Source of the DNA: Marivita lacus
Lineage (GTDB): Bacteria; Pseudomonadota; Alphaproteobacteria; Rhodobacterales; Rhodobacteraceae
Assembly (NCBI RefSeq): GCF_014637725.1
Contig: NZ_BMFC01000007.1
Coordinates: 1 to 64,000 of the forward strand
DNA: 64,000 nucleotides
Direction: 5' to 3'
Position 1 is the first letter of the stretch, and each line of letters starts with the position of its first letter. The position numbers were made by a program, and so were the translations under genes. Positions 22,949 through 37,314 of this stretch are shown here, in pieces. The notes below the pieces were generated by a model. The model searched no databases. It was given only the letters and a program-made list of their open reading frames with translations, and was not told the DNA's origin.

Positions 22949-23378
22949 CGTGGCCTCCATTGCCTTGGGGAGGATCGCACTGTGCAGCCGATCCAGTGTC
23001 CGACCGGACATCGCGTCCGCATTCGGTTGGTTCAAGGACTCTATACCTCGCGAGGCTTAAACAGGCTGACGCAGATCAGTCAGACGCTTCAATGACGCGC
23101 TACCGCGCGTCGATTGACACTGCTGCACTCAGGACAATCCAGAGAATGTTGCGGTCCAGCGGCTGCCGATACTGATGCAACTGACTACAAAAGTCTTTTG
23201 AGCTTACAAGCGGCAGGGGGGCAGGGGGGGGCGACATCGGCTAGAAAAGTGATGTCTCGCTGAACATTTGGCGGGGTATTTTTCCGAGTACCAAGAAGTG
23301 TGCGGGCGTGTTGATCCTCAAAGCTTCGGCATTTCGGCGCGCTTCTCAGTCTCGGAACGTCCATGAAAGGACACTCTT
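22949..23378. other. Regulatory gap with Fnr-like box and G-tract
   Basis: This holds the promoter of the leftward family A gene, with a box at 23065-23080, and the upstream region of the small protein at 23412. A G6-CA-G8 tract occupies 23216-23231. From about 23232 to 23412 the sequence is similar to 36660-36850, upstream of the paralogous small protein. The stretch after the box is gene-free. Confidence 0.5.
23065..23080. promoter_or_regulatory. Crp/Fnr-type palindrome upstream of family A gene
   Basis: GCTGAC-GCAG-ATCAGT is nearly symmetrical: CTGAC against a perfect ATCAG half-site, with N4 spacing. It sits 117 bp before the start at 22948. It matches 14 of 16 positions of the perfect site at 24170. 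Confidence 0.5.
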
Positions 23379-23411
23379 ACGTCAACCGAACAAACAAAAA
23401 CTGCCGACAAG

Positions 23412-23567
23412 ATGAAATCCGTCAAGGCAGCCTGGGACAAGGCGCCTTTCGACCCGAAGAAAGATTCGGCGCTGAAGCATTACCAGGCGGCCAAAAAGGC
23501 GAATACGGCAAGAAACGAGGAAGACACGAACAAGGAACTCGACGCGGCGACCCACGGTCTCGCGTGA
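23412..23567 (+). CDS. Small Lys/Ala-rich stress-type protein, degraded copy with lost start
   Basis: From the ATG at 23412 the frame gives 51 residues (MKSVKAAWDKAP, DSALKHYQAAKKAN, KELDAATHGLA). The paralogue at 36819-37007 has 62 residues and begins 11 codons earlier; the aligned start codon here, at 23379, is ACG instead of ATG. The internal ATG has no good ribosome-binding site. It could be a pseudogene, use ACG, or start internally. The function is unknown; composition suggests a small helical cytoplasmic protein. Confidence 0.55.
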   Translation: MKSVKAAWDKAPFDPKKDSALKHYQAAKKANTARNEEDTNKELDAATHGLA

Positions 23568-23623
23568 CGCCCGTTGCCTGACCGAACACCGGGCCCGCTC
23601 CCCAGTAATGGCGGGCGGCCCTG

Positions 23624-23746
23624 TCGTTTCAGAACCGACCCGAGCTCATCCAGTACATGCTGAATCAATTTCGCAAGGTCCAACAGAAGGCCATGGTCGT
23701 GGACTACATTCTGGCACCCCAAAATATTGCCCTCCCGCACTCTCAA
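23624..23746 (-). pseudogene. Remnant of the C-terminal tail of a Crp/Fnr regulator
   Basis: The minus strand reads LRVREGNILGCQNVVHDHG then LLLDLAKLIQHVLDELGSVL-KR. This aligns with the end of the intact regulator at 24947-25675 (LREDGLVTFQ, VVFHDFEGLKALSG, YLDQDGPLLR). Only about 41 residues remain and no start is visible. It is convergent with the small protein at 23412, the same arrangement as the mini-Crp beside the paralogue at 36819. Confidence 0.5.
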
Positions 23747-23863
23747 GCCCCTACTCCGATTTATTCGCGATATCGCCATTTGCCTGGAGGACGGTCGCAC
23801 CCGCGCGCGATTTGCTCTGTCGCGATTTTCGGCACATGTCGCGCATGAAGGATACCATTCAAG

Positions 23864-24145
23864 ATGGAACTTGAGAGCTTACCGGTTATTGTTCTGGTCG
23901 GCGGGATCACGGGCTTGCTTGCAGGCTTGATCGTCAAAGGTTAGGGCTACGGCCTTCCCGGCAATATCGTCGTGGGGATCATCTGGTCGTTTGTCGCCAG
24001 CCTGATCTTGTCGGAAATCGGACGGAACATTGAGACAGGTATCGCTGGTTCAATTGTCCATGCCACTTTCGGTGCGGTGATCCTTCTGGTGTTGTTGCGG
24101 GTGATCAAAAGAACTTGCCTCTTTTGCGTCAGGTTCCGCCTTTGA
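23864..24145 (+). pseudogene. GlsB/YeaQ/YmgE-family membrane protein with in-frame stop
   Basis: The frame from ATG 23864 reads MELESLPVIVLVGGITGLLA and reaches a TAG at 23942-23944, after GLIVKG. The same frame continues GYGLPGNIVVGIIWSFVASL, then GIAGSIVHATFGAVILLVLL to a TGA at 24143-24145. Joined, this is a typical three-helix transglycosylase-associated stress protein. The TAG lies at the conserved glycine-rich turn. It is a pseudogene unless the stop is suppressed. Confidence 0.8.
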
Positions 24146-24169
24146 TCTGCACAATAATCCCAAGATTGT

Positions 24170-24185
24170 ACTGATCCAGATCAGT
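24170..24185. promoter_or_regulatory. Perfect Crp/Fnr-type palindrome upstream of csbD-like gene
   Basis: ACTGAT-CCAG-ATCAGT is a perfect 6-bp inverted repeat with a 4-base spacer, 84 bp before the CsbD-like start. It is the clearest member of the box family in this window. A second partial half-site (TTTGAT-CTGC) lies 30 bases upstream. Confidence 0.6.
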
Positions 24186-24253
24186 GTCGAAAGGCTCCAA
24201 AATGCAAAAACTGGTTTCATTGCGATACCCAGGCGCGGGAGTTCCCGCGCAAG

Positions 24254-24436
24254 GTGTTCGAGGAGAGTTGCGAACTGGACAAGGACGTCATCAAGGGAAC
24301 ACTCAAGCAGGTCAGGGAATGCATCGGCAAAGTTGCGAGCGATGCATCGCTTGAAGCTGAAGGCAAGATCGATCATGCCGAGGGCGCGCTTCGGAAGGCA
24401 TTCGGCGAAACGAAGGATGTCCTGAACAAGGATTGA
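24254..24436 (+). CDS. CsbD-family stress protein
   Basis: A 60-residue protein starting at GTG 24254. It shows the CsbD pattern DKDVIKGTLKQVRECIGKVA, then EAEGKIDHAEGALRKAFGE, with regularly spaced glycine-lysine pairs. CsbD proteins are small, abundant general-stress proteins of unknown mechanism. It lies behind the perfect box at 24170. Its 3' end is overlapped by the opposite-strand frame of the degraded gene at 24373-24771. Confidence 0.72.
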   Translation: MFEESCELDKDVIKGTLKQVRECIGKVASDASLEAEGKIDHAEGALRKAFGETKDVLNKD

Positions 24437-24771
24437 TCACGCCGCCGTTGGCCCCGTCGCCATTTACCTCGTGCGGCGGGGCTGCTATTTTGGTGATGAA
24501 AACCTTGGTTGATGCAGGTGAGCGCGCGTTCCGAAGGTTGGCGGGCAGGTCGCGCCGCGACGCTTGATAGCATCGCGTTTATCAGTGCGACGACAGTGAT
24601 GTGGCAATCATCCGGATCGCTGCCCGGAGCATTTAGAAAGACTCCTGCCGCGTCCCGCAACACGCCAACAATCTCGTGTTCGGGCAGCACGCCGCGGTCG
24701 ATCATGGCGAAGAGCAGGGATTGGCAAATCGTCAGCGCTGCGGCTCAGGCGGCGTCTTTTGGTTCGCTCAT
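24373..24771 (-). pseudogene. Decayed paralogue of the small protein at 37400
   Basis: From ATG 24771 the frame reads MSEPKDAA and then a TGA at 24745-24747. After the stop it continues AAALTICQSLL, DRGVLPEHEIVGVLRDAA, VALINAML, which matches AALSICEALL, DRGLLPEHETMGVLRNAA and ASLINAIF of the gene at 37400-37636. Translation might restart at ATG 24705, giving 110 residues with an unrelated tail that runs into csbD antisense. It is probably a pseudogene. Confidence 0.55.
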
Positions 24772-24860
24772 GGTCGACGTCACTGTCGGATAAGGGTTAC
24801 ACAGGACCATTCCAAGTCCAAGGCTACAAAACGACAACCTAAACCAAGTCGGCTTTTTCG

Positions 24861-24876
24861 AACTGATCCACAGCAG
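24861..24876. promoter_or_regulatory. Degenerate Crp/Fnr-type box between divergent genes
   Basis: ACTGAT-CCAC-AGCAGC has one perfect half and one damaged half. It lies between the decayed leftward gene (24771) and the rightward Crp gene (24947). The equivalent position between the paralogous genes at 37253 and 37400 holds the box at 37299. Confidence 0.35.
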
Positions 24877-24946
24877 CTTGGTCACACTTTCTCGGCCTCG
24901 TGTCATCGACAGCGAAACACGGCCTCACTATCTCGGAGTTCACGCC

Positions 24947-25675
24947 GTGCCACACCAGAGCGCACTGACACGAAAACTGCTGACCTTCGTCGCCCTGTCC
25001 GATCTGGACATCGAGACGCTGGCGCGTTTCTTCCAGCGCCGCAGAAGCTTTCTTGCCGGTCACGAAATGATCTATCAAGGTGAGAAGGATGCCTCGGCCT
25101 TTATCTTGGCCTCAGGCTGGGCCTATTCCTACAAGTTGCTCGCCAGCGGAGAACGACAGATCGTCGATTTCCAGGTTCCCGGCGATTTCCTTGGCTTGCG
25201 CAGCATTCTCTTTCGGACATCCGACCACAACATCGAGGCGATCACCCGCATCGAAGCTTCTGAAGTGCTGGCGTCCGATATTCTTGATGCTTTTTCGCAT
25301 GCGCCGCGGCTGGCAACGGCCATTCTCTGGGCTGCATCACGCGACGAGGCTATGGTCGTGGAACACCTTGTCAATCTTGGTCGGCGCTCGGCGGAAGAAC
25401 GCGTGGCACATCTCTTTCTGGAGCTGGGGACACGGTTGAAACTGGTTGGACTTGATGACGAAAATGGGTTCGATTGCCCGCTTACCCAATATCACCTTGC
25501 TGACGCACTGGGTCTCAGTGCTGTCCATGTCAATCGTGTGCTGCGTAATCTGCGTGAAGATGGCCTTGTAACCTTTCAGAAGGCGCGTGTGGTCTTCCAC
25601 GATTTTGAAGGACTCAAGGCGCTGTCGGGCTTCGATACGGGCTATCTTGACCAGGACGGTCCTCTGCTGCGTTGA
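24947..25675 (+). CDS. Crp/Fnr-family transcriptional regulator
   Basis: A 242-residue protein from GTG 24947 (CGGAG upstream); a TTG at 24878 would add 23 residues. Residues about 20-130 form the cyclic-nucleotide-binding-like barrel (GERQIVDFQVPGDFLGLRS). The C-terminal helix-turn-helix contains YHLADALGLSAVHVNRVLRNL. No N-terminal cysteine cluster is present, so it is not a classical Fe-S FNR; it belongs to the alphaproteobacterial VHVNRxLR group whose signals are mostly unknown. It is a natural candidate to bind the boxes scattered in this window. Confidence 0.92.
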   Translation: MPHQSALTRKLLTFVALSDLDIETLARFFQRRRSFLAGHEMIYQGEKDASAFILASGWAYSYKLLASGERQIVDFQVPGDFLGLRSILFRTSDHNIEAITRIEASEVLASDILDAFSHAPRLATAILWAASRDEAMVVEHLVNLGRRSAEERVAHLFLELGTRLKLVGLDDENGFDCPLTQYHLADALGLSAVHVNRVLRNLREDGLVTFQKARVVFHDFEGLKALSGFDTGYLDQDGPLLR

Positions 25676-25806
25676 TGTCCGGGTCAGCAGGCGTGTTGAT
25701 GCCTGGCTTGAAACGCGCGAAAACCGGTTCATGTGAGGAGCGGGTAGTGTTCTTGCCGCCAATTTCCAATCGAGAAAAACAACGCTTTCGGAATTCGTCA
25801 AAGGTT

Positions 25807-25822
25807 GCTGATCTACATCAGC
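25807..25822. promoter_or_regulatory. Perfect Crp/Fnr-type palindrome upstream of SH3-domain gene
   Basis: GCTGAT-CTAC-ATCAGC is a perfect 6-bp inverted repeat with N4 spacing, 159 bp before the start at 25981. It is in the 305-bp gap after the Crp gene. Confidence 0.55.
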
Positions 25823-25857
25823 CTGATCACCTCAAGATTGTATTAGTGTCTGTTATC

Positions 25858-25877
25858 GCGATCGAATATCCGATCGC
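25858..25877. repeat. Perfect 7-bp inverted repeat
   Basis: GCGATCG-AATATC-CGATCGC lies 103 bp before the SH3-domain gene and 35 bases after the Crp/Fnr-type box. The arms differ from the Crp/Fnr box, so this could be a second operator. The 25676-25980 gap holds no gene. Confidence 0.4.
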
Positions 25878-25980
25878 AATGCTGGCCAAATTCCGGAAAC
25901 GAGAGACTTGAGGACGGACAAACCAAGTTTGTCCGAACCCCTTTTCCTGCAGTTCCGGACCCGGCCGAAAGGAATATCCA

Positions 25981-26622
25981 ATGATTACGAAGAAGACACT
26001 TGGGGCTACAATTGCGACTCTGGTTCTGGCAACATCGGTGTCCGCGCAAACCAATGCGACCGCGTGGACCGATCTGAATTTGCGCGCCGGTCCGGGACCA
26101 ACGTATGACATCCTGCATGTGATCCCTGCGGCGCAGGTGGTCGATGTTGATGGCTGTCTTGATGCCTCGAATTGGTGCAGCGTTACCCATGGCGAGTTCA
26201 AGGGCTGGGCGTCCGGCGAATACCTGACGGCGATGGTCGAGGCACCGATCTATTCGAACCGCGAACAATTGGCGGTTGGCACCGTGACCTATGAACGTGC
26301 TCCCGACGCTACCGTCGGTGGAGGTGCGGCCGGTGCTGTTGCTGGTGCATTGATTGCTGGCCCGATCGGTGCGGTGGTCGGGTTGGGTGTCGGGATGGGA
26401 CTCGGCGCGGCAGCCACCCCCGAGGAGCGCGTGACGACCTATGTCCGGACGAACCCGGTCGACCAGATCTATCTCGATGGCGAAGTCGTGGTGGGTGCGG
26501 GCATCCCCGAGACAGTGCAGCTTTCGGAAGTTCCTGAAAGCGAATATTATTACGCATATGTCAACGGATTGCCTGTTCTGGTCGAGAAGGAACAACGACG
26601 CGTCGTATATATCGTGCGGTGA
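25981..26622 (+). CDS. Secreted SH3-domain protein with glycine-zipper and DUF1236-like tail
   Basis: A 213-residue protein with a signal peptide (MITKKTLGATIATLVLATSV, cleavage after SAQ). Residues 30-85 are a bacterial SH3 domain (DLNLRAGPGPTYDILHVIPA, WCSVTHGEFKGWASGEYL). A glycine-zipper hydrophobic stretch follows (GAVAGALIAGPIGAVVGLGV), then a DUF1236-like C-terminus (VGAGIPETVQLSEVP, YVNGLPVLVEKEQRRVVYIV). It is probably an envelope-associated protein. Ribosome-binding sequence GAAAGGAA precedes the ATG. Two palindromes lie upstream. Confidence 0.85.
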   Translation: MITKKTLGATIATLVLATSVSAQTNATAWTDLNLRAGPGPTYDILHVIPAAQVVDVDGCLDASNWCSVTHGEFKGWASGEYLTAMVEAPIYSNREQLAVGTVTYERAPDATVGGGAAGAVAGALIAGPIGAVVGLGVGMGLGAAATPEERVTTYVRTNPVDQIYLDGEVVVGAGIPETVQLSEVPESEYYYAYVNGLPVLVEKEQRRVVYIVR

Positions 26623-26659
26623 CGTTCCATAGCCCTTCTGCAAGGCAATGTGAAAATGG

Positions 26660-26681
26660 AGGCCCGGTATACGCCGGGCCT
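26660..26681 (+). terminator. Hairpin after the SH3-domain gene
   Basis: AGGCCCGG-TATACG-CCGGGCCT forms an 8-bp stem, 38 bases after the stop, followed by TCGTTG. It is a strong stem with a poor T-run, so a likely but not ideal intrinsic terminator. Confidence 0.6.
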
Positions 26682-26846
26682 TCGTTGAAGGTGTCACATT
26701 CGCCAATGGTGTCACTGCCACCGACTTTGAAAAACCGCGCCGCTTATCGCGTGATCAGGACGCGTCATCCAAAATCAGGCAAATCCCCACGATTCAGTGG
26801 AGGATCAGAATTTGTGTTGGATGTCAGTGCGCCTCTTGAATGTTCG

Positions 26847-26876
26847 AAAAAAGCCCCACTGAACATTCAGTAGGGC
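26847..26876 (-). terminator. Intrinsic terminator of the leftward 27804-26963 operon
   Basis: On the minus strand GCCCTACTGA-ATGT-TCAGTGGGGC forms a 10-bp stem with one mismatch, followed by TTTTTT. It is about 90 bases past the stop of the SnoaL-like gene. This is a textbook Rho-independent terminator. No gene is seen between it and the SH3-gene terminator. Confidence 0.8.
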
Positions 26877-26962
26877 ATTTCGTTCATAAGCGTTGTCATG
26901 GTTCTCTTGCACTGGCGCAGGTTGGTTCGAATACTTGCTGCGAGTCGCTTTGTTCCCATGCC

Positions 26963-27376
26963 TTATGTAACGGGCGTCTGCTGGTGTGAAAGCCGCTGCC
27001 ATCTGTCGTCATCAAGCAAATAGGTTGAGGCACAAAGTGCTTTGGAGATCGGCACGTCAGGTTTTTCTGCCGAAACGCGGTATGTGAGAATGGCGATGGT
27101 ACCACGAAACGTCAGACGCCGTTCGCTGATGGAGACAGACCGCCATCCGGTCCGATCTCGTAAGTGGTTCCAGATCAGATCGCCTTGGAGGATACCCGGT
27201 GGATACGGGAAGATCATGACGGCGTTGGTGGCTGTCGTCGCACGGGCATTGTCTGCTCCACTGGTCCAGAACTGTTCCTCCATGTCCCACAGGATCTGTT
27301 GTTCGTTTGGCGGCAGTGTACCGGATTTATGTGCAGCATGAACGGGCGTCTTCACTGAAGGGTTGGACAGGTTCAT
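26963..27376 (-). CDS. SnoaL/NTF2-like small protein (paralogue of the gene at 9729)
   Basis: A 137-residue protein starting at 27376, where its ATG overlaps the TGA of the upstream gene (ATGA). It carries the blocks shared with the gene at 9729: ILWDMEEQFWTSGADNAR, FPYPPGILQGDLIW, ILTYRVSAE and LSHQQTPVT. It is translated together with the tail-anchored family A protein, which suggests that the two products work together. The reaction or ligand is unknown. Confidence 0.72.
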   Translation of the reverse strand: MNLSNPSVKTPVHAAHKSGTLPPNEQQILWDMEEQFWTSGADNARATTATNAVMIFPYPPGILQGDLIWNHLRDRTGWRSVSISERRLTFRGTIAILTYRVSAEKPDVPISKALCASTYLLDDDRWQRLSHQQTPVT

Positions 27377-27804
27377 TTGGCCACCCCCGATCCGACCAAC
27401 ATCCAAAGTTGAAACAGCACGAAAACGAACGTGAGGATCGTCCAGAGCGCGCGGCCCGGGCCGCGGCGACCGACCAGAGCCAGAGAGGCTGACCCATTAA
27501 AACTACGTATCGCCGCTTGTTCCGGAAGCAGCAGACTAAGTTCCTTGGCCATTTTTCCGTGATCATTCCCGAGCGAGGGGACGTCTTTGAATTTGGCAAG
27601 CAATTCCCCCAGCCTTTTGTGTGCGGCCTCGTCGCCCAGGATGGCAAGGTCGGCGCTCTCGCTCCAGGGATCAAGCTCGAGCCGTGCCAGCGCAGAGAGA
27701 ACTGTCACCGCTGACCCGTTCCGGTCCTCGCCGACAGACGCAAAAAGAAATCGTTCGAACTCGGGTGGGTTAGGGTTGAGAATAGTGGTTCCGCGCATCG
27801 TCAT
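27373..27804 (-). CDS. Tail-anchored small protein, family A (paralogue of the gene at 22529)
   Basis: A 143-residue protein starting at ATG 27804 (MTMRGTTILNPNPPEFERFL), or at ATG 27798. The soluble domain has LSALARLELDPWSESADLAI and VPSLGNDHGKMAKELSLLLP, close to the gene at 22529. A C-terminal helix (LWTILTFVFVLFQLWMLV) anchors it. It is coupled to the SnoaL-like gene downstream and ends at the terminator at 26847. A Crp/Fnr-type box lies about 150 bp upstream. Confidence 0.7.
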   Translation of the reverse strand: MTMRGTTILNPNPPEFERFLFASVGEDRNGSAVTVLSALARLELDPWSESADLAILGDEAAHKRLGELLAKFKDVPSLGNDHGKMAKELSLLLPEQAAIRSFNGSASLALVGRRGPGRALWTILTFVFVLFQLWMLVGSGVAK

Positions 27805-27954: not shown

Positions 27955-27970
27955 ACTAACCTGCATCAGT
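27955..27970. promoter_or_regulatory. Crp/Fnr-type box upstream of family A gene
   Basis: ACTAAC-CTGC-ATCAGT has one perfect ATCAGT half and a weaker ACTAAC half. Fourteen of its 16 bases plus flanks (GGACTAACCTGC-TCAGT) recur at 36643. It is 151 bp upstream of the start at 27804. Confidence 0.45.
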
Positions 27971-28091: not shown

Positions 28092-28358
28092 ATGCGCGCG
28101 AGCCATCTCACTGTCATTTACCCACATCCCTTCAGCCTGTCGGGATATCCGCACGAATTGCCGGCCGGACAATACGAGGTTCTTGTCGAAGAAGAGACCG
28201 TCACGGTGCGCGGCGTGCCCGTCTTTCGGTGGACGGCGGCATATCTGACCCTGCCCCGCACGAAAGGTGAGGCAGGTCGTAGAAAACGCCGCCCGCTCAA
28301 CGGGGCAGACCTTGTCACAGCGATGCAAAACCGACTTCCCCCCAGTCAGTACCAATAG
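28092..28358 (+). CDS. Small LPAGxY-motif protein
   Basis: An 88-residue protein with IYPHPFSLSGYPHELPAGQY, followed by EVLVEEETVTVRG. The same N-terminal pattern (PF-x-x-G-x-x-LPAG-Y) occurs in the longer protein at 35546-36079, so both belong to one small family. It ends in a basic tail (GRRKRRPLNGADLVTAM). There is no signal peptide or membrane helix. The function is unknown. Confidence 0.6.
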   Translation: MRASHLTVIYPHPFSLSGYPHELPAGQYEVLVEEETVTVRGVPVFRWTAAYLTLPRTKGEAGRRKRRPLNGADLVTAMQNRLPPSQYQ

Positions 28359-28514: not shown

Positions 28515-28538
28515 TTGCAATTTCTGCGTTTGAGGCTT

Positions 28539-28775: not shown

Positions 28776-31613
28776 TCACTGAAGATCGAGCAACAAACGC
28801 ACCTTCTCGGCAAGTTGTTTGCGGCGGTAGGGTTTGCTCAGCAATTGCACACCCGGGTCGAGTCGACCTTGATGCATGATGGCTTGTTCCGTGTAGCCCG
28901 AAGTGAAGAGCACCTTTATTTCTGGACGCATCTTGAGGGCAATGTCGGCGAGCTCGCGACCGTTCATTCCATCTGGCATCACGATATCGGTGAACAGCAG
29001 GTCGAAAGACTGCGTCTGCGTCAGGGTTTCAATCGCTTCGGGTCCGGATCCCACGCCAACGACCTTGTATCCGAGCCCCAGCAACTGGGAGATCAGGTGC
29101 TCGCGCACCAACATGTCGTCCTCGACCACGAGGATACTCTCCGATCCACCGACGAGATGTTTTCCCGTGTCTGAAATTTGGTCAAGAGTGGCCTCTCCAG
29201 TCGCGCGCGGGAAATACAGCTTGATCGACGTGCCTTCGCCAGGCTCGGAATAGACGTTGATGTAACCACCCGATTGCTTGACGAAGCCGTAGACCATGCT
29301 CAGTCCCAGTCCGGAGCCCTTGCCGACCTCCTTGGTCGTGAAAAACGGCTCGAAGATGTGCGACAGGACATCCGTCGGAATGCCCTCTCCTGTGTCGGTG
29401 ATGGTAATCATCACATACTGGCCGGGAATGACGTTGTACCCACGGGCACTATAATCCTGGTCAAGCGCGGCATTGGCGGTCTCGATTGTAAGGCGACCAC
29501 CTTCCGGCATCGCGTCGCGGGCATTCAGTGACAGGTTCAATATTGCAGCATCGAGTTGTGACGGGTCAATTTCTGTCCGCCAAAGACCATCAGGACAATT
29601 CAGCCGGATATCGATATTTTCCGACAGCGTGCGACCCAACAGCCCCTCGGATCCGCGGATCAAGTCATTCACATCCATCAATTGCGGCTTCAGAGGCTGC
29701 TTGCGCGAAAAGGCAAGAAGCCGGTTGGTCAGATCGGCGCCGCGCTCCGCAGCGGTGATGATCATCTCTGCAAGCGTCCGCTGCGGCTCGCCGAGTTCAT
29801 CGCCGAGAATCTCGGCATTGCCCAATATTATCGTCAGCAGATTGTTGAAGTCATGCGCCACGCCGCCGGTCAACTGCCCTACAGCCTCCAGCTTCTGGGA
29901 CTGGCGCAACCGGTTCTCGGTGTCTCGCTTGGCGGTGACATCGGACATGCTCCCCGTCAGGCGAACTGCCTTGCCTTCGGCATCGCGGATGATGAAGGCG
30001 CGATCGACAACGATCAGCGGGAGTCCGTTTGCGTGCATGAAGCGGTATTCCTCGGTCCAGCTGTTGGCTGAGCCAGCGATCACAGCGTGAACACTTTCCA
30101 GAACCCGCGTCTTGTCCTCGGGATGTATCCGGTTGACCCAGGAGTCCGAACCGGGCTCCACCTGCGCCGGATCGTAACCGAAAGTCGATTGCAGGCTTTC
30201 GTTCCACCATTGCGTGTCGGCGATCATGTCCCAGTCCCGGATCGTCTCGTTCGTGGCCTTTGTCACAAGGGAAAAGCGCTCTTGGCTGACACGGAGCTCA
30301 GCCTCGGCGCGGCTCCGCGCGACGGCCTCCCACAACCGCTCCGCGACTGCTTCCGTCAGCGTGACGTCGCTGGACTTCCATGGGTGCGGGCTGGAGAAGT
30401 AGACCCCCAAGATTGCCCGAAGACGACCCTCCTTCAGCAGCGGAACCTTCAACAGGCTGCCGATGCCAAGATCTTCGAAAGCGGCAGGCGGGTCATTGCC
30501 TGCGATACGCTCATCCTCGAGAACGTTCTCGATGACGAGTGTCCGGCCCTCTTCGAGATGGTCCAGAACCCGGTGCCCAAAATCCTCGACGCGGTAGCCT
30601 CCAACCTGCACCGTCACCTGTTCATTGCTCCAGACACGTGGCAAGATCCGGTGTTCGTCGCTGTCATCGATGTCGGCGTAAAGCACCCAGGCGGCATTCA
30701 ATTGCTTGCCAAGCGCCTCGCAGGTCATGTCGATCAGGCTTTCCGGGCTTGCCTCTCCACGCTGCCGATCGAGGAGGTCGAGGATGAAGCCGCGACGGAC
30801 TTCCCGTGCATTCTCCTGTCGCTCGGTTGCCCGCTCCTCTGTCAGGTCGTCGATGGCCAGAAGGATGAGCTGATGGGTATTGATGCGGCGCGCGTTCAGC
30901 ATCATGACACGATGCCCGATATCATCGAAGTCGTGTTCGACCTCGAACCCGTTGAAGGTGTCGTTGTCGGGCAGAACGTCCTCGAGCAGTTCACGCAGCT
31001 TGGGGATGTCCCACTGACCGTTGCCGAGCTCATACACAAGCCGGCCCTCCGTCTCCTCGCGGTCGACCGCGAATGCGTCGAAGAACGTTTCGTTTGCCCT
31101 GAGCACCTTCAGATCCTGGTCGAGGACCAGGAAGGATACCGGCGCGGCGTCGATGATGATCTCGGCCAGGTGCTTCTGCCGTTCGGTCTCGTGGCGGTGA
31201 TCCTCCTGCGCGGTGATGTCGTCGATCGACATCAGTATCAGCGCGGGACTGAGTTCCGGGATCTGGCGCGCGTTTATCATCATGATCCGCCGACCTATGG
31301 TCTCGAAGCGATGATCCACCATGAAATCCTCGACGACCTCACTGTTCGGAAGGATGTCCTCGAGTAGCGTGCGCAACCTTGGAATGTCCCACTGTTGGTT
31401 CCCAAGATCATAGATAATGCATCCCTCTGTATCGACGGCTTTGACGTCGAATGTGTTGTAGAACCTCTTGTTGGCACCCCTGACCACGAGTTCGCTATCC
31501 AGGACGAGGAAGGGCTGCCGCATCGTGTTGAGAATGGACTGCGCGTCGAGGTTGCTCATGGAAAAGTCGCGATCTTTTGCGCTCTTTGCGGTACCATCGT
31601 CGGGGTGCTTCAT
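28776..31613 (-). CDS. Hybrid sensor histidine kinase (PAS-PAS-GAF-PAS-HisKA-HATPase-REC)
   Basis: A 945-residue soluble protein, start 31613 with AGGAAG upstream. Two related PAS domains (about residues 20-140 and 150-270; both contain LVLD and YDLGNQQWDIP/YELGNGQWDIP), a GAF domain (about 285-430), a third PAS (about 445-575), HisKA with GGVAHDFNNLLT (phospho-His587), a HATPase with NLSLNARDAMPEGG and GKGSGLGLSMVYG, and a C-terminal receiver with phospho-acceptor Asp876 in LLFTDIVMPD. With no membrane segment it should sense a cytoplasmic signal. No separate response regulator lies beside it. Confidence 0.95.
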   Translation of the reverse strand: MKHPDDGTAKSAKDRDFSMSNLDAQSILNTMRQPFLVLDSELVVRGANKRFYNTFDVKAVDTEGCIIYDLGNQQWDIPRLRTLLEDILPNSEVVEDFMVDHRFETIGRRIMMINARQIPELSPALILMSIDDITAQEDHRHETERQKHLAEIIIDAAPVSFLVLDQDLKVLRANETFFDAFAVDREETEGRLVYELGNGQWDIPKLRELLEDVLPDNDTFNGFEVEHDFDDIGHRVMMLNARRINTHQLILLAIDDLTEERATERQENAREVRRGFILDLLDRQRGEASPESLIDMTCEALGKQLNAAWVLYADIDDSDEHRILPRVWSNEQVTVQVGGYRVEDFGHRVLDHLEEGRTLVIENVLEDERIAGNDPPAAFEDLGIGSLLKVPLLKEGRLRAILGVYFSSPHPWKSSDVTLTEAVAERLWEAVARSRAEAELRVSQERFSLVTKATNETIRDWDMIADTQWWNESLQSTFGYDPAQVEPGSDSWVNRIHPEDKTRVLESVHAVIAGSANSWTEEYRFMHANGLPLIVVDRAFIIRDAEGKAVRLTGSMSDVTAKRDTENRLRQSQKLEAVGQLTGGVAHDFNNLLTIILGNAEILGDELGEPQRTLAEMIITAAERGADLTNRLLAFSRKQPLKPQLMDVNDLIRGSEGLLGRTLSENIDIRLNCPDGLWRTEIDPSQLDAAILNLSLNARDAMPEGGRLTIETANAALDQDYSARGYNVIPGQYVMITITDTGEGIPTDVLSHIFEPFFTTKEVGKGSGLGLSMVYGFVKQSGGYINVYSEPGEGTSIKLYFPRATGEATLDQISDTGKHLVGGSESILVVEDDMLVREHLISQLLGLGYKVVGVGSGPEAIETLTQTQSFDLLFTDIVMPDGMNGRELADIALKMRPEIKVLFTSGYTEQAIMHQGRLDPGVQLLSKPYRRKQLAEKVRLLLDLQ

Positions 31614-31793: not shown

Positions 31794-32144
31794 CTACTGC
31801 TGAATAGTCAGTGATCCAACCGTGAGTGGCCACCAAACGGCATAGGCCGAGAACCGAAATCTGCGATCCGGGTCAAAGCGGTCAGTGGCTTTGATCAGCC
31901 CAATCTGCGCCTGTTGCACCAAATCCGGGTCAGCCTCCCCGGTCCCTCGTTTGAGGCGCTTTGCGATCGAAGCCGCCAATGGAGCGAATGCGCGGATCAG
32001 ATGATCACGAGCGCGTCGGTCGCCATGCGACTGCCATGCGCAAATCAATGACCGCTCCTCGTCAGCAGATAGCATCCCCGAAGATCGGACGTGCCGGGTC
32101 CCGTGGATGAGAGTCCTGACAGGTTTGTTCATGGCCAAGCTCAT
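31794..32144 (-). pseudogene. Truncated RpoH-like sigma factor
   Basis: A 116-residue frame (ATG 32144, or ATG 32132) with sigma-32-like sequence: LSADEERSLICAWQSHGDRR, then DLVQQAQIGLIKATDRFDP and RFRFSAYAVWW. These are the N-terminal and 2.1-2.4 regions. The reading frame then ends after WPLTVGSLTIQQ, so regions 3 and 4, which contact the -35 element, are missing. It is either a pseudogene or a short region-2 protein. It sits divergent to the MarR gene and next to the kinase. Confidence 0.7.
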
Positions 32145-32216: not shown

Positions 32217-32816
32217 ATGATCGATGAACCACAAACGCCAGACCGGATCGCAGAATTACTTGTTCATGTCGGGCGCGCGGCGCGGAGCGAAGATACAGAC
32301 TCCGGCCTGACGGCCGCCCAGTGGACCTGCCTGCGCTTTTTCGCTCGTGCCAACGGCAGCACACGTACTCCTTCGGGGTTCGCCAGCTTCCAGGCAACGA
32401 CCCGTGGCACGGCATCGCAGATCATCAAGTCGCTGGAGCGCAAGGGGCTGGTGACGGCGACTCGCTCGGACCGAGACCGTCGCAGCGTGTTTTTTGACCT
32501 GACAGGTCGCGGGCAGGCAATGCTTGCCAATGATCCGCTGCGACACCTGATTGACGTGATCGACGGGCTTGCCGCCATCGAGCGCGACAGCTTCCTGACA
32601 ACATTGTCCCGTTTGGCCGCAACATTGGCTATTCATCGGGACGCTCCTGCGTTTGGGACGTGCCAGGATTGCAGCCATTTCGCGTCATCCGGCGATACGG
32701 CCTATTGCGCCTGCATGGCCGAAGAACTGGCGGCCGTAGACATCCCGAAGCTCTGCGCAAGCTACAGGCCGACCCGCGCAGTACAGAGTCAAGGAGACCA
32801 AAATGGCGCAGACTGA
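32217..32816 (+). CDS. MarR-family regulator with cysteine-rich C-terminal extension
   Basis: A 199-residue protein with a winged helix (LTAAQWTCLRFFARANGST, SQIIKSLERKGLVTATRSDR-DRRS). Unlike standard MarR proteins of about 150 residues, it has a tail with GTCQDCSHF, YCACM and KLCASYRP. These cysteines (CX2C, CXC and a last Cys) could bind an Fe-S cluster or zinc. Its stop overlaps the next gene's start by 14 bp. Because the operon encodes Fe-S biogenesis proteins, it may sense Fe-S or iron status; that is inferred. Confidence 0.82.
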   Translation: MIDEPQTPDRIAELLVHVGRAARSEDTDSGLTAAQWTCLRFFARANGSTRTPSGFASFQATTRGTASQIIKSLERKGLVTATRSDRDRRSVFFDLTGRGQAMLANDPLRHLIDVIDGLAAIERDSFLTTLSRLAATLAIHRDAPAFGTCQDCSHFASSGDTAYCACMAEELAAVDIPKLCASYRPTRAVQSQGDQNGAD

Positions 32817-33969
32817 ACTGCCCGCTGAGCCCCGCATGATCGCCATCAGCAGTGGCAAGGGTGGAGTGGGAAAATCCACAGTCACAGCAAATATCGCTGT
32901 TGCCATGGCCGAGGCGGGCTTGCGCGTCGGAGTGGTGGATGCGGACATCTACGGGCCATCCATCCCGCGCATGCTGGGGATTCCTGCAGGCAAGCCAGCG
33001 ATGTCGCCCGCACAGAAGGTGATCCCGGCCGAGGCGCATGGGGTGAAGGTCATGTCTATGGCCATGTTATCGGACGATGACTCCCCGGCGATCCTGCGTG
33101 GGCCCATGGTGACGAAATACCTGCAGATGTTTATCCGTCAGGTGGAATGGGGCGCGCTGGACGTCCTGTTGCTTGACCTGCCGCCGGGCACGGGCGACAT
33201 CCAGCTGACCTTGGCGCAGGCCTTTCCTCTGACGGGCGCCGTGGTCGTCAGTACTCCACAGGATGTCAGCCTCAAGATTGCGCGGCGAGGCCTGCGCATG
33301 ATGGAACAGGTCAAGGTACCGATCCTTGGCGTGATCGAGAACATGAGCGGCTTTACCTGCCCGGAGTGCGGGACGGTGACGCATATTTTCCACGAGGGTG
33401 GCGGCGAAGCCATTGCGCGAGAGCTTGGCGTGGAATTCCTCGGCAAGGTACCTCTTGACCCGACAGTGGTCGATTGTGGCGACGACGGACGGCCGTTGGT
33501 TCTCGCCGCACCGGAGAGTTCTGCAGCCGCCGCGTACCGGAGCATCGCCACCAGGTTGGCCGGAAGCGCCTGCGACATCGTAGGGATCGCGACGCCCTTT
33601 GCGTGGACACTTACCGACGACACCGGAAAACCGGCGCCTGTACAGGCCCTGGTAAGTGGTCCAGCCGACCGCCTCGCGGCTCTGGATCATGCCGACGGCG
33701 CGCTCCTTTTGCGATGGGCCGACGGTGCAGATCAACGGCTGACAGACCGCGATCTGCGGCTGGTCTGCCAATGCGCACAATGCCGCGACGAAATGAGCGG
33801 CAAGCGGATTCTGAATCCTGAAAACGTGTCGCTGAATATCAACCTGACCCGAGTCTGGAGCGTCGGCAACTACGCGCTCGGCATGGCCTTCAGCGACGGC
33901 CACGATACCGGCATATACACCTTTCAGGCATTACAGACGATGGCGGGGACGGAACTGGAGGATGTCTGA
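32803..33969 (+). CDS. mrp: Mrp/NBP35-type Fe-S carrier ATPase fused to a DUF971 domain
   Basis: A 388-residue protein starting at ATG 32803 (AAGGAGACC upstream). Residues 10-260 are the Mrp/ApbC P-loop ATPase: GKGGVGKST, VVDADIYGPSIPRM, LLLDLPPGTGDIQL, and CPECG (a CxxC used to bind the cluster). The C-terminal about 90 residues are a DUF971/GBBH-like domain: LRLVCQCAQCRDEMSGKRIL, VGNYALGMAFSDGHDTGIYT. The fusion, with extra cysteines, suggests Fe-S or redox chemistry. It overlaps MarR upstream and the Nfu-like gene downstream. Confidence 0.93.
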   Translation: MAQTELPAEPRMIAISSGKGGVGKSTVTANIAVAMAEAGLRVGVVDADIYGPSIPRMLGIPAGKPAMSPAQKVIPAEAHGVKVMSMAMLSDDDSPAILRGPMVTKYLQMFIRQVEWGALDVLLLDLPPGTGDIQLTLAQAFPLTGAVVVSTPQDVSLKIARRGLRMMEQVKVPILGVIENMSGFTCPECGTVTHIFHEGGGEAIARELGVEFLGKVPLDPTVVDCGDDGRPLVLAAPESSAAAAYRSIATRLAGSACDIVGIATPFAWTLTDDTGKPAPVQALVSGPADRLAALDHADGALLLRWADGADQRLTDRDLRLVCQCAQCRDEMSGKRILNPENVSLNINLTRVWSVGNYALGMAFSDGHDTGIYTFQALQTMAGTELEDV

Positions 33970-35236
33970 CACCGCCATCCGCCGCCGCATCCGGGCCCAG
34001 TCATCGGAAAACGATCCTGATGTCATGGGCTTTGTCTTGGACATCCCGATCCAGGAGGGTGCGTTGGTCTGGTTCGAAGCCTCAGACGATGCCCCGCTGG
34101 CACAGGCACTTTTTGCGTTGGACGGGGTCGTCCGCGTCGAAGTGAGCGACACCACAATCTGGGTAAAGAAACGCCCTGACGCTGACTGGACACACCTCAA
34201 GCCCCGCATTGCCGAAGGGATCCGACGCGTGCTCGACGAAACAGACATGCCACTTGGCGGGGAAAGCGTGGTCGCGGCAAGCCCGGACGAAGGCCTGCGA
34301 AAGGCCGTCGAGGATTTGCTGGACCGGCAGGTCAATCCGGCGGTCGCCGCCCATAGCGGCCATATCTCGGTAGACAAGGTCGAAGGGTTGACCGTGCACC
34401 TGCGCATGTCCGGCGGCTGTCAAGGCTGTGCTGCATCGGCAGTCACGCTCCGAGAAGGGGTGGAACGCATGCTGCGCGCCGCCTTGCCGCAGATCGACCG
34501 GATCATCGACGTCACGGACCACGCGTCAGGGGACAACCCGTTCTATGCCCGTGACGATGGACCCTCGCCGTTCCTGAACAGACCCGTCCCCGAAGGCGTC
34601 ATCAGATGGGAGGATGGGCAAATAACAGTGGACCCCAACTATCTGGCGCCAAAGCTCGGCATCACCGCCGAAACTCTTCGCGCCGGATTGCGTCGCGGGG
34701 AGGTCGTTGGCGTGACCGAAACCGGCGAAGGCACGGACAATGGCAAGACCCGGATCATCCTTCGCACCTCGACCCGCGCCTGGGCAGCAGAAATCGACTC
34801 CACCGGCGCTGCCCGCGAGATCCCGCCCCCGCGCGTGATCAAGACGGCAGCAAGCAACGAGGTCGATTTGACAAACCGCGTGCGCGCACATCTGGAAGGT
34901 CTCAACGAGAACTCCGCTCCAATCACATACGGTGCATTGGCGCGTGCGCTCGGTTTGTGGGCGCCAGGCTCCGTCGGCAGGGTCACTCGGGCCCTGGAAA
35001 CGACGATGCGGCAAGACGCGGCTGCCGATCACCCTTTCATCGCCGCCCGCGCGGTCAGCCGCGGACACAACAATCTGCCCGGCAAAGGCTATTTCGATCT
35101 CGCCCGCGCTCTCTCGCGCGGACCGCTGGAAGGTGAAAGCGAGGCAGAGTTTCACACCAGAGAACTCCGCCGCCTGAACGAGATCAGGACCAATCAAACA
35201 CCTTCCGGCGCTGTCACCGTGAACACACACATCTAA
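33962..35236 (+). CDS. Nfu/NifU-type fusion protein with DUF6522-like and C-terminal winged-helix-like parts
   Basis: A 424-residue protein. Residues about 20-80 resemble the Nfu N-terminal domain (ALFALDGVVRVEVSDTTIWV). Residues about 110-175 are the NifU C-terminal domain, with its CxxC motif in SGGCQGCAASAVTLREGVE. Residues about 200-285 resemble DUF6522 (VDPNYLAPKLGITAETLRAG). The last about 110 residues contain ITYGALARALGLWAPGSVGR, a domain seen in various proteins and probably helical. It overlaps mrp by 8 bp. It may be a dedicated scaffold or carrier delivering clusters with the Mrp fusion protein. Confidence 0.8.
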   Translation: MSDTAIRRRIRAQSSENDPDVMGFVLDIPIQEGALVWFEASDDAPLAQALFALDGVVRVEVSDTTIWVKKRPDADWTHLKPRIAEGIRRVLDETDMPLGGESVVAASPDEGLRKAVEDLLDRQVNPAVAAHSGHISVDKVEGLTVHLRMSGGCQGCAASAVTLREGVERMLRAALPQIDRIIDVTDHASGDNPFYARDDGPSPFLNRPVPEGVIRWEDGQITVDPNYLAPKLGITAETLRAGLRRGEVVGVTETGEGTDNGKTRIILRTSTRAWAAEIDSTGAAREIPPPRVIKTAASNEVDLTNRVRAHLEGLNENSAPITYGALARALGLWAPGSVGRVTRALETTMRQDAAADHPFIAARAVSRGHNNLPGKGYFDLARALSRGPLEGESEAEFHTRELRRLNEIRTNQTPSGAVTVNTHI

Positions 35237-35336
35237 CCACAGCACATGTTTCTGATCATATCCGCCGATGTGAAGGATTTTCGATGCCGGCCGCAGTGCA
35301 CGGTTCCAGGAGGATGGCGTGCGCCCCCGATGGCGG

Positions 35337-35549
35337 TCAGCGACGGCGTGATGTGCCCGGGCTGACGGGCAACGCGTTTCGCCAAGCATTCAAGCTCTTG
35401 CAGCGCCGACAGATCCGTTCGCCAAAGCCTTCACTCCAGAAAACACTATCGCATCTCAGGCAAGGACGTTCTCGAGGTATGTCGCCCAAGGCCTTTTCTG
35501 GCGCGTTGCACGGCGCTGCCGCTTCAGCCATAGCCCTGTTCGCCGTCAT
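35337..35549 (-). CDS. Small zinc-ribbon protein
   Basis: A 70-residue protein translated from ATG 35549, whose ATGA overlaps the stop of the upstream gene. It has a paired CxxC motif, CLRCDSVFWSEGFGERIC then RRC, and a short conserved-looking end (LNAWRNALPVS). It is likely a zinc ribbon of the type seen in small Rhodobacteraceae proteins. The function is unknown. A gene-free stretch of about 100 bases separates it from the Nfu gene on the other strand. Confidence 0.65.
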   Translation of the reverse strand: MTANRAMAEAAAPCNAPEKALGDIPRERPCLRCDSVFWSEGFGERICRRCKSLNAWRNALPVSPGTSRRR

Positions 35550-36079
35550 ATCTGTTCTGCTGCGAGGCACATCCGCAAGGGCTGCGACGTTTCCGGTCGC
35601 GAGGGCATGCCTTCGTTTTCGGCAACCTGGATTGACGCATTTTCGCGTGCTCGTTGGTAGGCCAGCTTGGGGTCCAGCACATCCAGGTCGGACTGTGGCG
35701 TCCGGAGCCCAGAATAGAGATGTCGCAGATGCGCCACGGAGACGCCGTCAGCCTCCATCACGAGACGCACTATCGGATCTGCCAGCATTTCTTCGAGCAA
35801 GAAGTCGGATAACGCCTTGCCCGTCAGCTTGTCCTTGGCACGTATGTGGTCCAGGTCCGCAAGCGAAACGGTCAGGGTCCTGGTCAGTCCAGGATGTGAT
35901 ACCCGAGGATGTAGATTGACCAGAACAGAGGCCTTCCAGGCTTCGGGATCCTCTTGATCTGGGGGTGAAACGAGCTCGGTTTCGATGTCGTATTCCCCCG
36001 CTGGCAGTGTCTCGCCAAATCCTGGGACGGTGAACGGTCGGGCGAAAACCGCAACGGTCTTGCTCGTCTGATCTTCCAT
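35546..36079 (-). CDS. LPAGxY-motif protein
   Basis: A 177-residue protein. The start at 36079 (MEDQTSKTVAVFARPFTVPG) is chosen for its GGAGG site and for the family-like N-terminus. LPAGEYDIETELVSPP repeats the motif of the 28092 protein, followed by LTRTLTVSLADLDHIRAKDK. It is co-translated with the zinc-ribbon protein. The function is unknown; the repeated occurrence in the stress region hints at a stress role. Confidence 0.65.
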   Translation of the reverse strand: MEDQTSKTVAVFARPFTVPGFGETLPAGEYDIETELVSPPDQEDPEAWKASVLVNLHPRVSHPGLTRTLTVSLADLDHIRAKDKLTGKALSDFLLEEMLADPIVRLVMEADGVSVAHLRHLYSGLRTPQSDLDVLDPKLAYQRARENASIQVAENEGMPSRPETSQPLRMCLAAEQI

Positions 36080-36156
36080 CGACGTGATCCTCCATGTTGT
36101 TGCTGCGGGTGGTTCGCACCCCCTTTTGAGAATGGGGCGCGTGGCTTGTATACGTC

Positions 36157-36294
36157 TCAAGATGTCTTGGACGTCGCAGGCGCTTCCTTGCCGACGGCAT
36201 TGGACTCGTTCTGCTTGGCAGGGGTCTTTGCTGCTTCGGCAGGCCTCAGCTTCATTGCCGCCGAAGCCCGTGCTGTCAGGTCCTTGAGGGACAT
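36157..36294 (-). CDS. Small Ala/Lys-rich protein (about 45 aa)
   Basis: ATG 36294 (MSLKDLTARASAAMK, with AAAGGG 8 bases upstream) starts a 45-residue protein rich in Ala, Lys, Thr and Pro, ending KEAPATSKTS. An ATG at 36336 would add 14 residues. The MSLKDLTA-xAxAA-K start is shared by small proteins of Rhodobacterales as I recall them. There is no other evidence for function. Confidence 0.5.
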   Translation of the reverse strand: MSLKDLTARASAAMKLRPAEAAKTPAKQNESNAVGKEAPATSKTS

Positions 36295-36429
36295 GTCATC
36301 GACCCTTTGATTGGCCGACGTCAACTCCTCGTCCATGGTGGACCGGGAGGCTCGACAAAAGTACTACTATCTATATGGGGACTGGCCCCCCAATTTACGA
36401 CGGCGCAGGTCGAAGAAAACCAAAGTCGA

Positions 36430-36630
36430 TTAGGCCAATTCATCGGTCCAGACCTTGAATTCCGTCAAAATGTTGTGCCCGAATGTCTGGGTCAAAGGCA
36501 CATCGGCGGTATCGCGGTAACGCGCGATCAGAATTCTCGCAAACCTCGGTTTGTTGTTGCGCGGGTCGAACATGTGCCATTCACCAGTAAACCATGTTGG
36601 CCTGAGTGCTGCGGCGTCATTCGATCTGCC
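36430..36630 (-). pseudogene. C-terminal remnant of a transglutaminase-like protein
   Basis: The minus strand reads PTWFTGEWHMFDPRNNKPR, then GHNILTEFKVWTDELA and a stop. This matches the C-terminal part of bacterial transglutaminase-like (Transglut_core) proteins: the WYTFDPRNNxPR block carries the catalytic aspartate. The catalytic cysteine and N-terminal part are missing, cut near the regulatory box at 36643. An internal ATG at 36573 would give only 47 residues. Confidence 0.6.
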
Positions 36631-36642
36631 TCACGCGCCCGG

Positions 36643-36658
36643 ACTAACCTGCGTCAGT
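36643..36658. promoter_or_regulatory. Crp/Fnr-type box upstream of small protein gene
   Basis: ACTAAC-CTGC-GTCAGT lies 161 bp upstream of the start at 36819. Together with its flanks it repeats the box at 27955 (15 of 16 bases). The right half is one base from ATCAGT. Confidence 0.4.
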
Positions 36659-36818
36659 GCGCCGGGGCGTTGATATCGGCTAGGTGAAATGTGCCCGCCG
36701 AATATCTGGTGGGGCAATTTTCCGAGTACCCGCGAAGCATGCGGGCGTATCAAACCCCAAAAGGTCAGGATGTAAGCGTGCTTCTTATTGCTCGGAACGT
36801 CCAGAAAGGACATTCCAA

Positions 36819-37007
36819 ATGACACCCCAACAGACCAAGACAGCCGACAAGATGACGTCAGTGAAAGCCGCCTGGGACAAGGCACCCTCAGGCCCGAAGA
36901 AGGACTCGGCGCTGAAGCATTACCAGGCAGCTGAGAAGGCAAACACGGCGAAGAACGACACCGAGACCAACAAGGAACTCGATGCGGCGACCCACGCCCT
37001 CGCGTGA
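36819..37007 (+). CDS. Small Lys/Ala-rich stress-type protein (intact copy)
   Basis: A 62-residue protein starting at ATG 36819, with AGAAAGGA upstream (MTPQQTKTADKMTSVKAAWD, KKDSALKHYQAAEKA, NKELDAATHALA). Its degraded copy is at 23412, and the two regions also share about 150 bases upstream of the gene. It is soluble, basic and helical. The function is unknown; position near CIRCE-groESL and Crp/Fnr-type boxes suggests a stress role. Confidence 0.72.
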   Translation: MTPQQTKTADKMTSVKAAWDKAPSGPKKDSALKHYQAAEKANTAKNDTETNKELDAATHALA

Positions 37008-37064
37008 CCTTCTGCGTCTGACGTGATCACTGGGGCCGTCTGCCGAAAAGGGAGGGCGGCCCTC

Positions 37065-37253
37065 TCATCTAAGACGTGGTTCAATCTGATCCAGATATGC
37101 CGGATCGAACTCGCCTTGATGCACCATATCGCATCCCGCGACGAAGGATCGACGACGCTGGTGCAGTTGTTCAAGGACGGCCAGCTCGACCTCCGACAGG
37201 GTGACGAAGGCAGAGAGCTTGCGCGTCAGAGGGCTGTGTTCAGCTGATGCCAT
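37065..37253 (-). CDS. Miniature Crp/Fnr protein: N-terminus joined to C-terminal tail
   Basis: From ATG 37253 (GGGAGG upstream) the frame reads MASAEHSPLTRKLSAFVTLS, HQRRRSFVAGCDMVHQGE and then directly FDPAYLDQIEPRLR and a stop, 62 residues. The start matches the intact Crp (SALTRKLLTFVALS, QRRRSFLAGHEMIYQGE) and the end matches its last residues (FDTGYLDQDGPLLR). About 165 residues, including the barrel and helix-turn-helix, are missing in frame. It could be a deletion relic or a small protein that interferes with a Crp dimer. Confidence 0.7.
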   Translation of the reverse strand: MASAEHSPLTRKLSAFVTLSEVELAVLEQLHQRRRSFVAGCDMVHQGEFDPAYLDQIEPRLR

Positions 37254-37298
37254 GGGGCCTCCCGGCGCGTCGTGACCCAAGAGCGGAAATGGGCCCAC

Positions 37299-37314
37299 AC
37301 TGCTCTGGATCAGT
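37299..37314. promoter_or_regulatory. Crp/Fnr-type box between mini-Crp and small gene
   Basis: ACTGCT-CTGG-ATCAGT has one perfect half-site and one mismatch in the other. It lies between the divergent mini-Crp (37253) and the gene at 37400, 46 and 86 bases from their starts. Confidence 0.5.

Follow-up and report, generated by a model that had tools for sequence, protein, structure and literature searches.

Several Crp/Fnr-type regulators described in Rhodobacteraceae provide a frame for a set of palindromes found in a 64-kb stretch of Marivita lacus DNA (contig NZ_BMFC01000007.1, positions 1 to 64,000; hereafter the window), where a Crp/Fnr-family regulator gene at 24947-25675 lies within a cassette of small stress-type genes. 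FnrL and DnrD-F belong to the same superfamily and share an N4-spaced palindrome with the system considered here, but their site is TTGAT-N4-ATCAA, their targets are respiration and denitrification genes, and their outer pair is T:A instead of C:G (PMC5398030; this and the other papers are cited from excerpts of their text). CrpK of Rhodobacter sphaeroides (RSP_2572) resembles the M. lacus protein in family, in lacking N-terminal iron-sulfur (Fe-S) cysteines and in having a site with the TGA-N6-TCA core of the FnrL/CrpK consensus; it differs in having photosynthesis and iron targets in common with FnrL, as far as a comparison by description goes (PMC4263372, PMC4344238). Likewise by description, the subgroup B Crp/Fnr proteins DnrB and DnrC of D. 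shibae (Dshi_2521, Dshi_2528), which are given there as unassigned in function and located among hypothetical genes, may be relatives of this regulator (PMC5398030). The literature, searched mostly within open access, gave no earlier description of the motif or regulon, in line with the original prediction that the system was previously undescribed.

The comparisons presented here make it very likely that the regulator would act as a dedicated class II activator of its stress-gene cassette by binding the motif RCTRAY-N4-RTYAGY. All eight near-palindromic 16-mers that the original prediction listed in the window could be read back from the sequence, with one start moved from 24861 to 24862. The palindrome at 25807 is perfect, as had been claimed, but its unit is GCTGAT-N4-ATCAGC and not ACTGAT-N4-ATCAGT; the right half ATCAGT, attributed to most sites, is exact in five of the eight, and the site at 36643 has three mismatches to the consensus ACTGAT-N4-ATCAGT. 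When up to three mismatches to this consensus are allowed, the window holds 26 matches for 17.1 expected, a number reached by 2 of 100 shuffles. This enrichment is only mild, so the window alone is insufficient to decide, and the relatives of the regulator become the main source of evidence.

Loci were fetched by the regulator protein alone (the best 80 of 467 relatives, L016-L095, 67-80% identical and mostly from Rhodobacteraceae-type organisms) and scanned with the unchanged window motif. A site with up to two mismatches lies 20-150 bp before the regulator in 62 of the 80 loci; in the same promoter test, the best of 179 other half-site permutations reached 11 loci, with a median of 0. The commonest 16-mer in these promoters, ACTGATCCAGAGCAGT, accounts for 20 of 63 sites, and 14 sites start exactly at -78. 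Sixteen of the 18 loci without such a site match an asymmetric form, ACTGATNNANAGCAGT, at up to two mismatches, a count that is descriptive because the form was noticed afterwards; the exceptions are L053 and L063, and in L068 the site lies further upstream. The information content of the site over 75 loci is 1.59 bits per position, a value inflated by the choice of sites by pattern, compared with 0.54 and 0.35 in the flanks.

The motif also recurs away from the regulator promoter. With regulator promoters excluded and at most one mismatch, 25 matches are intergenic and one is coding, against permuted means of 0.5 and 0.8, in DNA of which 26% lies outside predicted genes (80 loci; the predictions come from a simple caller that misses some small genes). 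Matches with exactly two mismatches number 45 intergenic and 22 coding, against permuted means of 5.9 and 12.3, so these sites are partly background. The refined form RCTRAY-N4-RTYAGY gives 128 intergenic, 7 coding and 3 regulator-promoter matches in the 80 loci, and 60 of 360 permuted degenerate patterns averaged 1.5 intergenic and 2.2 coding matches; since the refined form was derived from the same loci, the 25-to-1 result is the cleaner test. The density of refined sites is highest in the interval of -6 to +3 kb around the regulator; at least one such site is present in 60 of the 80 loci. In the 4.77-Mb M. lacus genome there are 13 exact matches to this form, five of them within 13.6 kb of the window (23065, 24170, 25807, 27955 and 36643), where 0.02 would be expected from the rate of the other eight (P about 5e-11); the exact asymmetric form ACTGATNNANAGCAGY occurs in the whole genome only at 24862 and 37299. 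Both forms were written after inspection of the relatives' sites.

Base preferences were obtained by varying one half-site position with the rest fixed and counting intergenic matches, which are not independent because the loci are related. Position 2 is C in 256, T in 9, A in 4 and G in none of 269 half-sites; position 4 is G in 162, A in 94, T in 21 and C in none; position 5 is A in 256 of 264. TTGAT-N4-ATCAA has no exact copy in the 80 loci, against 30 of CTGAT-N4-ATCAG, and with the C at position 2 this upholds the earlier claim of a specificity distinct from TTGAT-N4-ATCAA. These data also bear on the idea that the sites are ordinary FnrL, Dnr or CrpK sites answering to oxygen or nitric oxide, beside which the regulator is incidental. 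The common TGA-N6-TCA core (PMC4263372) speaks for such a reading, as do some R. capsulatus FnrL sites that have one CTGA half (PMC4634722, in excerpt); the missing TTGAT copies and the rarity of T at position 2 argue against it, as does the tracking of this particular regulator by target family A described below, and we regard it as quite unlikely.

The HTH_Crp_2 and cNMP_binding domains of the protein both score above cut-off, as for a member of the Crp/Fnr superfamily, and the site has the corresponding architecture, a palindrome with two half-sites around TGA in which position 4 is relaxed to G or A. NCBIfam models for FnrL (69.7 bits, cut-off 300) and CRP (27.2 bits, cut-off 266) are not reached, and the four cluster cysteines of FNR/FnrL are absent, 79 of 80 orthologues having one to three cysteines and the remaining one none. 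The closest solved structure by sequence is that of FixK2 from Bradyrhizobium (PDB 4i2o, E 3.9e-16). FixK2 is a Crp/Fnr protein without an Fe-S cluster, its site is of the TTGA-N6-TCAA type, and the Glu of the FixK helix contacts this DNA. When the FixK2 helix LGLTLETVSRAL is aligned with LGLSAVHVNRVL of the present regulator, Glu is replaced by Val and Ser by Asn. The helix could be read in 79 orthologues, all of which keep its His, Asn and Arg; the place of the FixK-type Glu is taken by Val in 76 and Ile in three. E. coli CRP, from the same superfamily, has class II geometry, and CRP variants carrying Val at residue 181 tolerate an A:T base pair at the equivalent position. In CRP itself, Arg180 reads G2, and Arg185 together with Glu181 reads the G4:C4 pair (PMC11253593, in excerpt); at the places of Arg180 and Glu181 the M. 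lacus regulator has Ala and Val, as aligned through FixK2, and its motif differs in having C at position 2 and G or A at position 4. The missing helix Glu would be consistent with the tolerated A at position 4, and the altered specificity places with the C at position 2, making this clade a natural test case of how changes in the recognition helix shift DNA specificity. Additionally, 71 of the 80 orthologues match a pattern in which a cysteine immediately precedes PLTQ, just N-terminal to the recognition helix. Because FixK2 is redox-controlled through a cysteine near that place, the activating signal might conceivably be redox, a guess to which we attach low confidence.

To assess promoter geometry, we looked for TAnnnT on both sides of each of the 128 refined sites and tallied it by its distance from the site end (offsets 0-53). 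At offset 21 it occurs in 45 of 256 directions, against 0-4 matches at other offsets (mean 0.64), and 46 of the 128 sites have it at 20 or 21 in one direction or both. A peak 20 or 21 bp from the site, which then lies over the -35 region, is the spacing of class II promoters: a 16-bp site at offset 21 from a hexamer occupying -12 to -7 would have its centre at -41.5. Class I placement was rejected, since no second TAnnnT peak appears between offsets 0 and 53. In the divergent promoter shared by the regulator and the small gene Z, the Z side peaks at offset 20 (41 of 74), and the regulator side has no TAnnnT peak in the fetched loci. The hexamer at 20/21 is frequent before Thivi_2564 (11 of 20 directions), OmpA-type (7/10) and DUF3185 (4/9) genes and less so before A (7/47), G (3/24) and the 88-residue gene (1/23), with 15 of 97 for directions lacking a recognized family; in the window it accompanies sites 6055 (+), 23065 (-), 24862 (-) and 25807 (+). 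A regulator that binds these sites and represses, or whose effect varies by gene, would leave this spacing incidental; the location of the regulator-promoter site between divergent genes could be read in this manner, as could the 82 of 128 sites that have no strict TAnnnT at 20 or 21 bp in either direction. However, TAnnnT is about 70-fold more frequent at 21 bp than at the other offsets on average, as class II activation predicts, and repression or mixed action appears unlikely.

Under the preferred class II interpretation, a regulator dimer would bind RCTRAY-N4-RTYAGY at the -35 region, with its centre about 41.5 bp upstream of the transcription start, and would recruit RNA polymerase as other class II Crp/Fnr activators do. 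Its predicted targets are small envelope or stress-type genes (SH3/DUF1236, DUF883, DUF3185, Thivi_2564, OmpA-type, A, G and Z, and also Z-groES-groEL). The single asymmetric site in the divergent regulator-Z promoter would drive Z, and probably also couples the expression of the regulator itself, which would amount to autoregulation. What the sequences show directly is the motif with its position and conservation, its distance to a -10-like hexamer and its co-occurrence with the regulator; binding, activation and autoregulation are deduced from these.

Genes behind the sites (80 loci plus the window sites, with open reading frames [ORFs] chosen automatically) belong mostly to a few families: A, an unnamed family of 140 amino acids (aa), 17 times; the Thivi_2564 membrane protein, DUF3185, SH3/DUF1236 (family D, from nine fetched loci among others) and OmpA-type proteins, 12 times each; DUF883-type proteins, 10 times; and the 62-aa family G, seven times. 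Family A had no Pfam match for the longer window ORF or for one homologue. The stress genes originally proposed as targets fared unequally. In 5 of the 80 loci a CsbD gene lies behind a refined site, but the window palindrome at 24170 before csbD has no -10 element at the expected distance; the usp gene (3793-4644, minus strand) has no site with up to three mismatches in the 1.4 kb before it, and the window glsB is broken by an in-frame TAG. The statement that each site precedes a stress gene or an exporter operon needs the amendment that 23065 points to a minus-strand gene.

Co-occurrence was examined in 295 genomes of Rhodobacteraceae (regulator at E up to 1e-50, family A at E up to 1e-6), with P values that ignore kinship and linkage. 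The regulator is present in 60 genomes and family A in 48, of which 46 bear the regulator (Fisher P about 1e-38); the two others are G125, whose match contains stops, and G283, where it lies at a contig end. Conversely, A is missing from 14 genomes that bear the regulator. Each of the six genomes with the DUF3185 protein also has the regulator (P 6e-5). Family D occurs in 36 genomes, 12 of them with the regulator, and an exact refined site precedes 3 of 12 D copies in regulator-bearing genomes (G282, G202 and G284, the last with the regulator on another contig) and 0 of 24 in others (P 0.03); by the stricter measure of up to two mismatches to ACTGAT-N4-ATCAGT, the figures are 2/12 and 0/24. 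This test used 36 of 38 places; the discovery copy (G000) and a fragment (G037:C130) were dropped, and G091 was kept despite a partial match and an extrapolated start. On plasmid pP97_c of Phaeobacter porticola, groEL, groES and a Z homologue 80% identical to that of the window adjoin the regulator. Since the evidence is one of sequence association, and the M. lacus genome has a second intact regulator (C8:8830-9546, 74% identical, same helix), another DNA-binding protein co-inherited with the cassette could be imagined at these sites. Most fetched relatives, however, have the site in the promoter of the regulator itself, and its dyad symmetry, N4 spacing and TGA core fit a Crp/Fnr dimer; such a binder is therefore very improbable.

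It is important to consider the observations that weigh against the class II activator proposed here. The fetched loci were picked by the regulator and are related, so their counts are not independent, and in 20 of the 80, which include short contigs, the refined motif is missing from intergenic DNA beyond the regulator promoter. The strict -10 element is absent in the fetched loci for D (0/11 directions), DUF883 (0/8) and CsbD (0/5), and window sites 24170, 27955, 36643 and 37299 have no strict TAnnnT at 20-21 bp (27955 has TATAAG). A D gene near the regulator in G154 has no site, nor do eight of nine D copies far from the regulator in regulator-bearing genomes; the second regulator, at C8:8830, has no site with up to two mismatches in the 20 kb examined. 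One of the 60 permuted degenerate patterns, RYTRACNNNNGTYARY, had 47 intergenic matches, although it overlaps the real motif (e.g., ACTAAC-N4-GTTAGT), and permuted GATCAT outnumbers ACTGAT over all DNA at up to two mismatches (165 versus 156), with matches mostly in coding DNA. The latter count, like the mild excess in the window, is what would be seen if the palindromes arose by chance or belonged to a dispersed repeat without regulatory function; such an origin is already contradicted by the intergenic placement, the conservation in regulator promoters with much less conserved flanks, and the fixed -10 spacing, and its probability is practically negligible.

A further point concerns the extent of the regulon. 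Genome-wide counts at up to one mismatch do not differ and also count against the proposal (mean 3.97 with and 4.00 without the regulator). For the refined motif we compared 40 genomes with the regulator and 40 without it, hand-picked in handle order from 60 and 235 (incomplete genomes were skipped and some complete ones left); here there is a modest excess (3.58 versus 2.57 per Mb, P 9e-5; reversed control motif, 1.05 and 1.41). Given these counts, and with 5 of the 13 matches of the 4.77-Mb genome in the window, a genome-wide regulon was rejected: the predicted regulon is local to the cassette. The enrichment originally anticipated across the genome is seen in the refined motif only. Two distant relatives with the VHVNR helix, from Methylobacterium (40% identical, L141) and Loktanella (42%, L142), lie in surroundings of about 12.7 kb where neither form of the site occurs, and in L143 the helix was unreadable in the frame used; one motif for all VHVNR proteins was therefore rejected. 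The motif seems to belong to this regulator clade, and in a relative 55% identical on the Roseicitreum plasmid pRA02 the sites are still present. From the original prediction of a regulon controlled by a VHVNR-group regulator, the tie between motif and regulator survives, but neither the general regulon nor the VHVNR group as its owner does.

Among 72,556 plasmid records, 31 contain a relative of the regulator at E up to 1e-40 (60-80% identity in 18), and outside Rhodobacteraceae relatives occur in Oceanibaculum, Aquibium and Hoeflea. The plasmid location, the patchy presence and these outside relatives suggest that the cassette may transfer between species. Whether it replaces the PhyR-NepR-EcfG general stress response was also considered and rejected as a rule, since NepR (PF18557) is found in this genome too and in 139 of the 295 genomes at E 0.001 (137 over the cut-off), 39 of them among the 60 that bear the regulator.

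Within the window the cassette is present twice, each copy partly decayed (Table 1). Copy 1 (about 22.5-28.4 kb) comprises an intact regulator gene, two A genes, D and the 88-aa gene, together with a Z relic, a G without ATG, the broken glsB and a CsbD ORF without ATG. Copy 2 (about 36.6-39.8 kb) carries G, Z, groES and groEL plus a regulator relic at the regulator's place. Its two sites, ACTAACCTGCGTCAGT (36643) and ACTGATCCAGAGCAGT, equal sites beside regulators elsewhere; an identical copy of the former adjoins the regulators of genomes G044 and G165. We see about even chances that the whole is a mobile, self-contained stress cassette with its own class II activator and DNA code. Its helix changes Glu to Val (and Ser to Asn) would have shifted TTGA to CTRA (position 2 C, position 4 G/A), in each new host it would stay insulated from regulators of the FNR type, and an activator that survives could also serve a second copy lacking its own. 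For an uncharacterized Crp/Fnr clade, these results supply a predicted motif, promoter geometry and target list that are directly testable, and they tie families without known function (A, G, Z, DUF3185 and DUF1236), plus a GroES/GroEL copy, to one putative switch.

Table 1. Sites and genes of the two cassette copies and the exporter locus in the window
Feature	Position	Strand	Remarks
Site AATGAT-N4-ATCAGT	6055..6070	+	TATCGT 21 bp downstream
Exporter genes: HlyD-type adaptor, MacB-type permease, ABC ATPase	6081..9210	+	Pfam; after site 6055
Predicted target A, copy 2	22553..22951	-	homologues
Site	23065..23080	-	before A copy 2; TAGAGT 21 bp off, minus side
G copy, 62-aa protein, usual ATG absent	23388..23564	+	tblastn; compared by eye
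glsB-like gene (Transgly_assoc)	23864..24145	+	TAG at 23942
Perfect palindrome ACTGAT-N4-ATCAGT	24170..24185	none	before csbD; no TAnnnT at 20-21 bp, both sides
CsbD-like ORF without ATG start	24254..24436	+	Pfam CsbD 37.4 bits, under the 40-bit cut-off
Z relic, small gene usually divergent from regulator	24562..24771	-	in-frame TGA near start; tblastn, frames
Site	24862..24877	-	between regulator (+) and Z relic (-); TAGGTT 20 bp away, minus side
Crp/Fnr-family regulator, 242 aa	24947..25675	+	recognition helix LGLSAVHVNRVLR; Pfam HTH_Crp_2 60.9 bits, cNMP_binding 45 bits
Perfect palindrome GCTGAT-N4-ATCAGC	25807..25822	+	TAGTGT 21 bp downstream
Predicted target D, SH3 + DUF1236, 213 aa	25981..26622	+	Pfam
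Predicted target A, copy 1, unnamed 140-aa family	27373..27804	-	homologues
Site	27955..27970	+	between A (-) and 88-aa gene (+); TATAAG 21 bp downstream on +
88-aa gene Y, conserved neighbor of A	28092..28358	+	
Site	36643..36658	+	before intact 62-aa gene G
Predicted target G, 62 aa, intact	36819..37007	+	no Pfam match
Second-regulator relic	37068..37238	-	about 43 N-terminal residues, then C-terminal end; internal deletion
Site	37299..37314	+	reverse complement ACTGATCCAGAGCAGT, most frequent 16-mer in the regulator promoters of relatives (20/63)
Z, small conserved protein, intact	37400..37636	+	follows site 37299
groES (37832-38119), groEL (38164-39801)	37832..39801	+	Pfam Cpn10, Cpn60; downstream of Z

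Some neighboring genes deserve mention. A large hybrid histidine kinase (28776-31613, minus strand; PAS, GAF, HATPase and receiver domains) adjoins the cassette and is a candidate signal input. Around the Methylobacterium relative L141 on plasmid pNMS14P1, two Crp/Fnr genes lie close together (5995-8078), near response-regulator and HWE-kinase genes. Conserved proteins with ETTDLERRVLAHERIL occur near the regulator in several loci (L094:12996-13457 and L034 near 1924); that of L094 had no Pfam match. Defense-system models gave no match for five proteins. Elsewhere in the window, 32803-35236 encodes an Mrp/NUBPL-type ATPase with a C-terminal GBBH-like N-terminal domain, followed by a NifU-type protein with a DUF6522 region, and a short ORF at 31794-32144 (minus strand), whose sole Pfam match is sigma-70 region 2, is perhaps a truncated sigma factor. 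Finally, 17386-21946 holds two adjoining cyanophycin-synthetase-like genes with Mur-ligase domains, the first of which has the Cyanophycin_syn N-terminal domain.

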